Source: Alicyclobacillus shizuokensis NBRC 103103 (GTDB lineage: Bacteria > Bacillota > Bacilli > Alicyclobacillales > Alicyclobacillaceae). From it: a stretch of 56,960 nt of DNA. Shown here one piece after another: positions 36,877 through 44,538 of the stretch. The position numbers were made by a program, and so were the translations under genes. Position 1 is the stretch's first letter, and every line of letters starts with the position of its first letter. Location of the stretch: NCBI RefSeq assembly GCF_001552255.1, contig NZ_BCQV01000033.1, positions 1-56,960 of the forward strand. Direction: 5' to 3'. The notes under the pieces are model-generated. The model was given only the letters and a program-made list of their open reading frames with translations, had not been told where the DNA came from and made no database searches.

Positions 36877-37884
36877 TTGCCAACCGACGCATTCGGACGC
36901 TCCCTGCGCGACTTACGGATTTCGGTCACGGACCGGTGCAATTTCCGCTGTCGATACTGCATGCCTAAAGAGGTCTTTGGGCCCGATTTTGCCTTCCTCC
37001 CGCGCACCGCCCTATTGACGTTTGAGGAGATCGTTCGCTTCACCCGCATCGCCGCCCAACTGGGTGTCCGCAAGGTGCGCCTGACCGGCGGCGAGCCGCT
37101 GTTGCGCCGCGACCTAGAGGAGTTGGTCGCCCAGTTGGCCGAGCTCGACGATATCGAGGACATCGCCTTGACCACGAACGGATCGCTCCTGACAAGAGAC
37201 AAGGCGGTCGCCCTGCGCGCCGCTGGACTGCGGCGCATCACCATCAGCCTTGATTCGTTGGACGACGCCGTCTTCATGGCGATGAACGATGTGCATTTTC
37301 CGGTCGCCAAGGTCTTGCAGGCGATTGAAAACGCCTACGCGGCGGGCCTGCGCCCGGTCAAGGTCAACATGGTGGTCCGACGCGGCTGGAACGAGGACAG
37401 CATCATCCCGATGGCGGAGCGGTTTCGCGGCAGTGGCTGCATCGTGAGGTTCATCGAATACATGGATGTGGGCAACTCCAACGGATGGAAGCTGGACGAC
37501 GTGGTTCCGGCGGAAGAAATCCTCCGTCGTATCCACCAGCATTGGCCGCTGGAAGCCGTGCCCCCGCGCACTCCAGGCGAGGTGGCCACCCGGTTTCGCT
37601 ACGCCGACGGACAGGGTGAAATTGGCGTCATCGCCTCGGTGACGCGGCCGTTTTGCGGTCAATGCACGCGCCTCAGGTTATCGGCCGAAGGCAAACTGTA
37701 TACCTGCTTGTTTGCATCGCACGGGTTTGATGTGCGTGCTCCGCTGCGCGCCGGCGCGTCCGATGCCGAGCTGCTGGAACTGCTCAACCAATTGTGGGGC
37801 GAGCGCCGGGACCGGTACTCCGAACTGAGGACGCAGGCCACCAGTCAACGGCCAAAAGTGGAAATGTCCCACATCGGGGGGTGA
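36877..37884 (+). CDS. moaA: GTP 3',8-cyclase (molybdenum cofactor biosynthesis protein A)
   Basis: A 335-aa radical-SAM enzyme that starts molybdopterin synthesis by rearranging GTP. The N-terminal cluster CNFRCRYC binds the SAM [4Fe-4S]; the C-terminal cluster CGQC with a third Cys 14 residues on (LYTC) binds the GTP-side cluster. RLTGGEPLLRRDL and FIEYMDVG are family signatures, and the conserved C-terminal Gly-Gly pair that reaches the active site is intact. The TTG at 36877 follows GGAGGAGGG. It is translationally adjacent to mocA. Its position facing the cox operon suggests cofactor supply for that enzyme; moaBCDE and moeA are not in the window. Confidence 0.97.
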   Translation: MPTDAFGRSLRDLRISVTDRCNFRCRYCMPKEVFGPDFAFLPRTALLTFEEIVRFTRIAAQLGVRKVRLTGGEPLLRRDLEELVAQLAELDDIEDIALTTNGSLLTRDKAVALRAAGLRRITISLDSLDDAVFMAMNDVHFPVAKVLQAIENAYAAGLRPVKVNMVVRRGWNEDSIIPMAERFRGSGCIVRFIEYMDVGNSNGWKLDDVVPAEEILRRIHQHWPLEAVPPRTPGEVATRFRYADGQGEIGVIASVTRPFCGQCTRLRLSAEGKLYTCLFASHGFDVRAPLRAGASDAELLELLNQLWGERRDRYSELRTQATSQRPKVEMSHIGG

Positions 37885-37889
37885 TGGGC

Positions 37890-41630: not shown

Positions 41631-43975
41631 GAACGTTGCCCCCCTTCCTGTATCGATCGCCACACGCGCTCCGGCGTCAGCGGCATCTGAATTTCCCGCA
41701 CGCCAAACGGCGCCAGGGCGTCCAGCACTGCGTTGACCACCGTCGGCGTCGCGGCAATCGTGCCGGTTTCGCCGATGCCTTTGACGCCCAGCGGATTGTG
41801 CGGTGACGGGGTTTCGGTGAACGCAGTTTCAAAATTCGGGAAGAAGCGTGCCTTCGGCATCGCGTAGTCCATCAGCGTGCCAGTCACCAACTGCCCCTGT
41901 TCGTCGTACACGGCCCCTTCCCACAGGGCCTGGCCAATGCCCTGGACGATGCCGCCGTGCACCTGGCCTTCCGCAATCATCGGGTTGATGACGCGCCCGC
42001 AGTCGTCCACCGCAATGTAGCGGTCGATGCGGACATCGCCCGTATCCGTGTCCACCTCGACCATGCAGATGTGGGTGCCGAACGAATAGGTGAAGTTGGC
42101 CGGGTCATAGAAGGCCTGCGCCTCCAGAGACGGCTCGACCCCCTGGGGCAGATTCCAGGCCAGGTGCGCCTGGAGGGCCACGTCTTGGAAGCTGACGCTG
42201 CGGCTCTTCGCCCCTTTGGCGTAGAACCGCCCATCTTCACACTCCACGTCTTCGGCCGACACCTCCAGCATGTGCGCGGCAATCCGGCGCGCCTTCTCCA
42301 ACACCCTGTCCAGCGCCACCGCCAAGGCGCTGCCCGCCACCGGCGTCGTGCGCGATCCGTACGTTCCCCAGCCCATCGAGATGCGGGCCGTGTCACCATG
42401 CACTACCTCGACATCTTCCACCAACACCCCGAGTTTGTCGGCCACAATCTGGGCAAAAGTGGTCTCCTCGCCTTGCCCGTGCGGTGAGGAGCCGGTAAAC
42501 ACGGTCACCTTGCCCGTCGGGTGCACGCGCACTGTGGAACTCTCCCACAGTCCGCCCTGGAAGCCGACCGCCCCGGCCACCTGGGAAGGACCGAGCCCAC
42601 AGATCTCCACGTACGTCGTCACCCCGACACCCACATGCCGGCCCTGCGCCCGCAGTTCCTGTTGTTTGCGGCGGAAGCCGTCGTAATCCGCCATATCCAA
42701 GGCCCGCGACAGCGCCAAGTGGTAGTTGCCGCTGTCATACTCCAGACCGGTCGGCGTGTGGTAGGGGAATTCGTCCGCCGGAATCAGGTTGCGGCGGCGC
42801 ACCTCGACCGGATCCATGCGGATTTCCCGGGCGTACAAATCGACCATGCGCTCCAACAGGTATGTCGCCTCCGGCCGCCCAGCTCCCCGGTAGGCATCGG
42901 TGGGCGTGGTGTTGGTGAACACCCCGTACACGTCCACGCCGACGTACGGAATCGTGTACGGCCCAGGGACAATCAGGCCAAAGAGGATGGTGGGCACACC
43001 CGGAGCCGCGGTGGACAGGTACGCTCCCATGTTGGCATAGGCGCGGACGCGAATCGCCTGGATGCGCCCGTCCCGTGTACCGGCCAATTCCAGTTCCTCC
43101 ACATGGTCGCGGCCGTGCGTGGTGACCAAGAAGTGCTCCCGCCTGTCCTCCGTCCACTTGACCGGACGCCCCAAATCCATCGCCGCAAACGCCACCAGCG
43201 CCTCATCCGGGTACACGGCAATCTTGGCGCCAAAACCGCCCCCCACGTCGGTCGCGACCACACGCAGGCGATGCTCGGGGATGCCGAGGATGCCGGAGAG
43301 AACGAAGCGGTGGATGTGCGGATTCTGGGAAGTCACCCAGACCGTCAACTCCCCTGTCGCCGGGTTGTACTGGGCGACCGAGGCGCGCGGCTCCATTGGG
43401 TTGGGCACCAACCGCTGCTGCCGGATGGTATGCCGCACCACCACCTCCGCCTGGGCGAACACCTCGTCCGTGGCATTGCCAATCTGCCAGTGGAAGGCCA
43501 CGTTGTCCGGCGCCTCCGCGTGCAAAACAGGCGCCCCGTTTTCCATCGCCTCCACCTGGTTCACCACCGCGGGCAGCACCTCGTACTGCACGGAAATGAG
43601 GTCAAGGGCGTCGCGCGCCGCGTAACGGGTGTCGGCGATCACCATCGCCACCCCGTCACCGACGTAGCGCACCTTGTCGACCGCCAGCGCGCGATGGGGC
43701 GGCGTCTTCAAGTCGGATTCGGGTGGAATCCAAGCCGTCGGAACGCTGCCCATGCGCTCGGCCAGGTCCCGCCCCGTATAGACCGCCACGACCCCTGGCG
43801 CACGCTTGGCCGCCTCGACGTCGATGCCGATAATCCGCGCGTGCGCGTGCGGACTGCGCAGAATCGCTGCATACAACATTCCGGGTAGCTGCACGTCGTC
43901 GGTGTACTGCCCGCGCCCGGTGATAAAACGCGGGTCTTCGCGGCGCTTGACCACCTGCCCAAACACCGTGCTCAT
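41627..43975 (-). CDS. coxL: Molybdopterin-binding large subunit, form II CoxL-like
   Basis: A 782-aa catalytic subunit of the xanthine-oxidase/CO-dehydrogenase family. The active-site loop is AYRGAGR at residues 361-367 (about 42895-42875), diagnostic of form II; form I CO dehydrogenases have AYXCSFR with the Cu-ligand Cys. Cofactor motifs GGGFGAK (245-251) and the catalytic Glu736 in KGIGETGTI are present. Form II enzymes have been called putative CO dehydrogenases, but their physiological substrate is disputed; aldehydes, purines or N-heterocycles are alternatives. It overlaps coxS and coxM by 4 nt each, so all three subunits are made together. With mocA nearby, a cytosine-dinucleotide cofactor is expected. 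Confidence 0.96.
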
Positions 43976-44538
43976 GCGTCCTCCCCCTCCTGACGCGTCA
44001 ACTCTTGGGCGCCGCCGGTCGGTGCCGAGGCCGCCACCTCAACCGCGGGCTCGGGTTCGACCTCAGGCGTCCTGTCGGCCGCGTACTGAATGGCCCGGAC
44101 AATGTTCTGGTACCCGGTGCAGCGGCAGATGACCCCTTCCAGCCCCTCGCGGATCTCTTCCTCGGTCGGATGCGGGTTTTCGTTCAGGAGCCCGGCGGCG
44201 GTCATAATCACCCCCGGCGTGCAAAATCCGCACTGCAGCCCATGTTTTTCCCAGAACCCTTCCTGGACCGGGTGCAGCTTGTCGATGCGGCCGAGCCCTT
44301 CAATCGTTGTCACTTCACACCCGTCCGCCTGCACCGCCAACACGGTGCACGACTTGACCGCCTTCCCGTCCAAGAGCACGGTGCAGGCCCCGCACTGGCT
44401 GGTGTCGCAGCCGACGTGCGTCCCGGTCAGCCCCAACTCGTCGCGCAGGAAATGGACCAATAGGAGGCGCGCCTCCACCTCCCGCGTGTAGGACGTCCCA
44501 TTGACCGACAGCGTGATGGCACACTTGCTTCCCTCCAA
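43972..44538 (-). CDS. coxS: 2Fe-2S small subunit of a molybdenum hydroxylase, CoxS-like
   Basis: A 188-aa iron-sulfur subunit. The plant-type ferredoxin cluster uses Cys44, 49, 52 and 64 ([10 protein letters not shown]); the helical-domain cluster uses Cys103, 106, 138 and 140 (CGFCTPG, CRCTGY). All eight ligands are present. The last 30 residues form an acidic Ala/Pro/Glu tail not usual in the family. The TTG at 44538 is 8 nt after AAGGAGG. It is the first gene of the coxSLMDE operon. Confidence 0.96.

Follow-up and report, generated by a model that had tools for sequence, protein, structure and literature searches.

Closest described systems

Several described enzymes resemble the product of the coxSLMDE operon of Alicyclobacillus shizuokensis NBRC 103103, a set of five genes on the 56,960-nucleotide contig NZ_BCQV01000033.1, which was analysed at its full length (hereafter the window) and is designated contig C33 in a genome of 3.63 Mb. 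The putative form II carbon monoxide (CO) dehydrogenases of Kyrpidia, Sulfobacillus and Aminobacter have the same active-site loop (AYRGAGR), the same S-L-M gene order and the same three subunits; most relatives carry coxG upstream and xdhC downstream, whereas the window operon is without both. A coxSLM cluster with coxD and coxE is likewise described as pCOD in Rubrivivax gelatinosus, where an active complex was demonstrated by coxL knockout with no substrate assigned, and where the enzyme is inhibited by excess copper (PMC10434068; for all articles cited by PMC number, statements refer to the accessible portions of the text). The form I CO dehydrogenase of Oligotropha (Afipia) carboxidovorans OM5 shares the fold, the subunits and the coxDE homologues, but its gene order is M-S-L, its loop AYRCSFR contains the copper-binding Cys and its CoxL is about 41% identical to that of the window. 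The glyceraldehyde oxidoreductase GAOR2 of Sulfolobus tokodaii (4ZOH) shares the residues YRGAGRPE, but it is only 39% identical over the fold and the corresponding NCBIfam cut-offs are not reached. The piperonal oxidase PceSML was considered as a further characterised relative, by its description only (PMC5131310).

With respect to maturation, CoxD of Oligotropha is assigned to molybdenum sulfuration, independently of CoxE and CoxF, and CoxE together with CoxF is placed at copper insertion (PMC3471820; PMC4240915). Among form II enzymes, coxD, coxE and coxF are regarded as less regular accessories (PMC5747140), and in SAR202 genomes with form II they are located elsewhere (PMC11411561). A form II operon containing coxD and coxE is already in print in the accessible parts of these sources (PMC10434068; PMC5747140; PMC11411561). 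The window operon is an ordinary, well-kept member of this known kind of enzyme. It is tentatively read here, with a probability of roughly 0.42, as encoding a copper-less form II molybdenum hydroxylase that acts on a carbonyl-type substrate and has its own CoxDE maturation pair.

Organization of the operon

All five genes lie on the minus strand as intact frames. Family matches identify coxSLM as a predicted three-subunit molybdenum hydroxylase with molybdopterin in CoxL, two [2Fe-2S] clusters in CoxS and flavin adenine dinucleotide (FAD) in CoxM. The small subunit CoxS (43972..44538, 188 aa, TTG start) matches Pfam Fer2 and Fer2_2, and its top Protein Data Bank chain by sequence is 4zoh_C of glyceraldehyde oxidoreductase (237.5 bits). 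The large subunit CoxL (41627..43975, 782 aa, form II) matches Ald_Xan_dh_C, MoCoBD_1 and MoCoBD_2 and is 97% identical to its counterpart in A. kakegawensis and 93% to that in A. herbarius. The FAD subunit CoxM (40776..41630, 284 aa from the ATG at 41630) matches FAD_binding_5 and CO_deh_flav_C. These are followed by the MoxR-type AAA+ ATPase CoxD (39838..40779, 313 aa from the GTG at 40779; AAA_5), whose best NCBIfam match, the MadB ATPase, reaches 290 bits against a cut-off of 475 and does not make it a member of that family, and by the VWA-domain protein CoxE (38646..39845, 399 aa from the ATG at 39845), which matches VWA_CoxE with 154.9 bits (cut-off 26.4). Consecutive genes overlap by 4 to 8 bases, coxS/coxL and coxL/coxM via ATGA, coxM/coxD via GTGA and coxD/coxE by 8 bases. 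The starts of coxM, coxD and coxE were chosen by inference from such overlaps (ATGA with coxL, GTGA with coxM), and the frames from 41079 (coxD) and 39989 (coxE) in the open reading frame list probably begin too far upstream. In CoxD, the Walker A (GEAGVGKTEV) and Walker B (VLLIDEVDR) motifs and the RR pair are intact, as is the DxSGS motif (DVSGSM) in CoxE.

Two cofactor genes converge on coxE from the plus strand, both intact. The GTP 3',8-cyclase gene moaA (36877..37884, start TTG at 36877; NCBIfam moaA 391.6 bits, above the cut-off of 284.05) overlaps with its stop codon the start of mocA by one base, and mocA (37884..38537; NTP_transf_3) encodes a molybdopterin cytidylyltransferase-like protein that scores 143.1 bits against NCBIfam matur_MocA_YgfJ, below the cut-off of 186.45. 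The initial annotation had thus described the architecture correctly: a complete, tightly overlapping coxSLMDE set, facing moaA-mocA, in which coxD and coxE are retained and coxF/xdhC and coxG are missing locally. The latter holds for the whole window, and a search of the genome, which had been proposed, found two XdhC frames (on C12 only) and three CoxG frames (on C12, C6 and C11). A scan of positions 38400-48300 yielded 8 sigma-70 promoter-like sites where 1.7 would be expected; three of these precede coxS on the minus strand (44735-44786). Terminator-like sites in the same region are uninformative, as 7 were observed and 7.1 expected.

Identity of the CoxL subunit

The loop AYRGAGR, noted at the outset in place of the copper-liganding AYXCSFR, occupies CoxL residues 361-367 (42875..42895, minus strand), and in an alignment of 98 rows the column of the copper-binding Cys of form I holds Gly in the window enzyme. 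Since the loop Cys of CO dehydrogenase is replaced by Gly-Ala-Gly, the enzyme is most likely copper-free. Residues 362-369 (YRGAGRPE) are identical to those of GAOR2 (4zoh_A), the match to SYRGAGRPE at residues 330-338 of that chain covers 8 of 9 positions, and the residue aligned with R367 is Arg336, one of the listed pocket residues of GAOR2 (PMC4726530); 4zoh_A was aligned here over two stretches only, of 82 and 55 residues. The loop is taken, with modest confidence, as the sign of a molybdenum-only, carbonyl-type site. Two further columns are nearly invariant, 217 being Gln in 97 of the 98 rows and 736 being Glu in 95, with gaps in the other 3.

Family models do not place CoxL in a named class. 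The protein scores 813.9 bits against the NCBIfam model CO_dehy_Mo_lg (TIGR02416; cut-off 991.15), and 454.8 and 423.8 bits against XdhA models with cut-offs of 780 and 916 bits. A tree of the 98 rows with SH-aLRT (Shimodaira-Hasegawa-like approximate likelihood ratio test) support, a quick tree in which 19 of the 95 inner branches are open and long branches meet, joins the window CoxL to enzymes of Alicyclobacillus, Kyrpidia, Sulfobacillus and Thermomicrobium. It groups with AYRGAGR enzymes and outside form I, which forms a separate clade of three rows (support 100) that is placed among form II-like rows, some forks being open. Accordingly, the substrate, called open in the initial annotation, stays so: CoxL falls inside no characterised clade, the named references in this tree being only the OM5 form I CO dehydrogenase and E. 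coli XdhA. The predicted CoxL structure (mean predicted local distance difference test score 90.3) leaves the matter equally unsettled, because CO dehydrogenase, quinoline 2-oxidoreductase and xanthine enzymes are all near folds.

Linkage of coxD and coxE to the enzyme

A scan with short peptides of the window CoxL provided the loci for comparison (80 of 121 confirmed loci), and close relatives are therefore over-represented. Together with two additional Kyrpidia loci (L147 and L148) the set comprised 82 loci; 19 without a coxS match were dropped, leaving 63, and 7 of these had too little flank for scoring coxDE. In the 56 scorable loci, coxDE is linked to the enzyme in 44, and since the same S-L-M-D-E order recurs in most relatives with sufficient flank, the operon is more than a chance arrangement. 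Its fullest form is coxG-S-L-M-D-E-xdhC-mocA, found for example in Kyrpidia (L013), Thermomicrobium (L023) and L078. Both coxG and xdhC have been lost from the operon in the window and in A. kakegawensis, and an xdhC frame is retained between coxE and mocA in A. herbarius (L006); coxF and coxG were lost locally, and their absence does not characterise the enzyme type. Across 61 related genomes, 24 contain a form II CoxL of at least 70% identity. XdhC occurs in all 24 and CoxE above 100 bits in 22, the other two (G038 and G039) reaching only 63 and 72 bits with their VWA matches; among the remaining 37 genomes a single one has CoxE above 100 bits, and that one has form I.

The window genome itself offers a comparison, as it contains four MoCoBD_2 genes. 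Contig C12 encodes a form I CO dehydrogenase (loop AYRCSFR, 1268 bits against the cut-off of 991.15) with coxD, coxE, coxG and two xdhC genes. An enzyme with the loop AYRGVGG is encoded on C6 (L121) with coxD, coxE and coxG, and its kin occur in Kyrpidia (L149) and in L011, there in tandem with the form II operon. The enzyme on C11 (loop ALRGFGI) is accompanied by coxG and has no coxDE match. VWA_CoxE matches are confined to C12, C33 and C6, so that the AAA+/VWA pair accompanies three of the four molybdenum hydroxylases, two of which are without the copper Cys. Because the three CoxE proteins accompany AYRCSFR, AYRGAGR and AYRGVGG enzymes in one genome, the presence of the pair is not bound to the copper Cys. 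Moreover, the CoxD proteins of the window, C12 and C6 do not group together but each with the CoxD proteins that accompany its own enzyme type in other genomes; CoxD divergence, as judged from these sequences, follows enzyme type and not genome.

Further copies of coxL were observed in some loci. In L023, L024, L025 and L027, the first AYRGAGR CoxL is followed about 8 kb downstream by a second one that is 48-50% identical. More distant CoxL relatives (41-47% identical), with no coxS match in the locus and varying flanks, occur in L061-L065, L067, L069, L071-L077, L080-L082 and L084, and L063, L072 and L074 have two CoxL-like genes in a row.

Proposed function and points against it

In the proposed mechanism, moaA and mocA would supply the molybdenum-molybdopterin cytosine dinucleotide cofactor. 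CoxD and CoxE would act on the folded apo-enzyme, opening or holding it to allow placement of the terminal sulfur on molybdenum, a sulfur-setting step that would correspond to the one ascribed to CoxD before copper entry in Oligotropha. The help of XdhC, lost from the operon, may be supplied in trans by the form I cluster of C12. The resulting active site would be a Mo(oxo)(sulfido) centre with the conserved Gln217 and Glu736, at which a small carbonyl or carbonyl-like carbon, such as an aldehyde or its cyclic imine, would be hydroxylated, and electrons would pass from molybdenum via the FeS clusters and FAD to the respiratory chain. A copper-only role of CoxE does not fit a form II enzyme.

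Several observations weigh against this proposal. The enzyme from an Oligotropha coxE mutant contained sulfur and lacked copper, which favours a copper role of CoxE in that organism (PMC3471820; PMC4240915). By sequence, CO dehydrogenase (8uem, 769 bits) ranks above 4zoh (446 bits), and by fold CO dehydrogenase 1n60_B ranks first (Z 53.0, root-mean-square deviation 1.9, 762 residues aligned), with 4zoh_A at Z 41.2, root-mean-square deviation 2.1 and 690 residues aligned (39% identical). All three glyceraldehyde oxidoreductase models (NF041018, NF041019 and NF041020) give scores below their cut-offs, namely L (glyceraldDH_alpha) 780.6 of 790, M 288.7 of 350 and S 258 of 290 bits. For the Rubrivivax enzyme, in-gel activity was not raised by four aldehydes and was slightly raised by CO2-enriched medium (PMC10434068). 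K. spormannii FAVT5 and COOX1, which have an enzyme with this loop, use CO as sole energy source (PMC7248562). Finally, coxDE is present in only 5 and missing from 8 of 13 loci whose loop reads AYRGAGK, with Lys in place of Arg.

These 13 loci (L022, L026, L028, L030, L031, L035, L059, L066, L078 and L161-L164) form a Bacillales branch, and in the eight of them without coxDE the enzyme is therefore matured without the pair or inactive. On a tree of 25 rows, the fewest changes that explain the distribution of coxDE are five, about four losses in the AYRGAGK branch and one in L015. Of the eight genomes behind the loci without coxDE, four are devoid of any CoxE match, three give weak matches of 20 to 46 bits and one (G062) has a strong one elsewhere (168 bits). 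The AYRGAGK CoxD rows and their sister L016 form one clade (98/99), which mirrors the CoxL tree (100/100) and implies common inheritance of pair and enzyme before the pair disappeared. The trees of 25 and 22 rows were both of the careful kind, with an open fork among the CoxD rows of the AYRGAGK type. L022, whose genome is without a CoxE match, and L161, which has coxDE, share the same gene order and surroundings and a CoxL that is 83% identical. An association of the Lys/Arg change itself with coxDE loss, suggested by 8 of 9 Lys loci without coxDE among the first 80, was rejected, as the Lys arose in a single event, a pairs test was null and four further Lys loci carry coxDE.

Repeated loss while the enzyme persists, and the lack of any CoxE match in half of the eight genomes, would also be expected if CoxDE were genomic fellow travellers with no function at a site that has no copper. 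This is distinctly unlikely given the 44/56 linkage, the overlapping frames, the intact catalytic and metal-site motifs and the way in which CoxD divergence tracks enzyme type. As close relatives have lost coxDE repeatedly, the pair is better seen as helpful but not indispensable. The initial annotation had concluded from an AAA+/VWA pair on a form II enzyme that active-site remodelling is needed, and had made co-occurrence of coxDE with form II coxL in related genomes its touchstone; the co-occurrence is present and a dedicated pair is upheld, but the need for it is not, given the losses in the AYRGAGK branch and in L015.

Carbon monoxide as a possible substrate

Growth of Kyrpidia on CO bears directly on whether the enzyme might be a true CO dehydrogenase without the loop Cys, with a molybdenum-only or differently liganded centre built by CoxDE. 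The genomes of FAVT5 and COOX1 are reported to contain one AYRGAGR CoxL cluster, consisting of coxSLM and coxG, and no form I, which is reported in Kyrpidia EA-1 and not in K. tusciae; coxD and coxE receive no mention in the accessible text (PMC7248562). In the present set, an enzyme of the window type (CoxL 74-76% identical) occurs in four of four Kyrpidia genomes, and coxD and coxE follow coxSLM in the three loci that were read (L013, L147 and L148). One Kyrpidia genome (G077) also has a form I enzyme with AYRCSFR (L150), and another (G078) has none among its three CoxL matches. Because a CO-growing Kyrpidia has this enzyme, the CO reading stays alive despite the missing Cys, and CO dehydrogenase is, as stated, the nearest fold. 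It is nevertheless unlikely: the thiolate that form I uses to hold copper is missing, the assignment is called puzzling by the authors themselves, and the link of the cluster to growth on CO is made in the accessible text without a knockout (PMC7248562). CO uptake is often not seen in isolates that have only form II (PMC13203968), and a third molybdenum hydroxylase (43-44% identity) is present in both G077 and G078. That the form II enzymes of Alicyclobacillus and Kyrpidia are working CO dehydrogenases in which CoxD and CoxE build a molybdenum centre of another make-up is quite improbable; Cys459, which is found in 62 of the 98 rows and is Val in the three form I rows, would be one candidate ligand of such a centre.

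Genes accompanying the AYRGAGK branch

Lactamase-type pxp genes (CT_C_D, CT_A_B and LamB_YcsF) lie within about 10 kb of the enzyme in all 13 AYRGAGK loci and in none of the 71 other loci of the 80-locus set. Proteins of these families (5-oxoprolinase type) open lactams. Several AYRGAGK loci also have a biotin carboxylase gene, and some a sigma-54 activator. If a molybdenum hydroxylase used a cyclic imine, its product would be a lactam for the pxp-type proteins, and it is conceivable that the substrate is an N-heterocycle or cyclic imine, to which the presence of quinoline 2-oxidoreductase among the near folds would also be suited. For the window this alternative is doubtful, as its enzyme has Arg and not Lys at the pocket position and no pxp genes nearby, the one LamB_YcsF gene of the genome being on C39, away from the enzyme. 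The pxp link counts as one evolutionary association, since the 13 loci all come from a single branch, and flank lengths differ between the loci compared. No paper linking pxp-type genes to a form II CoxL was among the literature matches listed. Ten neighbour proteins from Arg-type loci showed no common pathway. A 2-hydroxyacid dehydrogenase family was seen at varying distance in 6 of 61 clustered loci.

Upstream neighbourhood of coxS

Upstream of the operon, a purine riboswitch (Rfam RF00167, 48081-48182, minus strand, 78.1 bits) precedes xpt and pbuX on the same strand, which could suggest a purine dehydrogenase. This is exceedingly improbable, and a purine substrate was dropped: xpt is near the enzyme in 1 of 82 loci (the closest relative, A. 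kakegawensis L005) and pbuX in 2, one of them a weak 32% match, while E. coli XdhA is far from the window CoxL in the 98-row tree. Two features of the window also speak against it: pbuX (45723-47077, minus strand) is split over two frames by a one-base gap relative to the whole gene in A. kakegawensis, which reflects either a broken gene or a sequencing error, and a Uma2-family gene (44885-45487, minus strand) intervenes between pbuX and coxS; it looks inserted, because no match is listed for A. kakegawensis. Further upstream, the minus-strand genes at 49099-53908 are, by eye in the open reading frame list, presumably a rhamnose-type set of fused aldolase/dehydrogenase, kinase and isomerase behind a DeoR-like regulator.

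Implications

Form II CoxL is among the commonest unassigned molybdenum enzymes, and surveys count it as CO oxidation. The copper insertion proposed for CoxE in Oligotropha is ill-suited to an enzyme without the copper Cys, and the relatives L161 and L022, 83% identical with and without coxDE, constitute a natural paired test of the role of the pair. What is new here is the pattern of coxDE linkage and loss, the pxp lead for one branch and the recognition of Kyrpidia as a culturable, CO-growing host of this enzyme.

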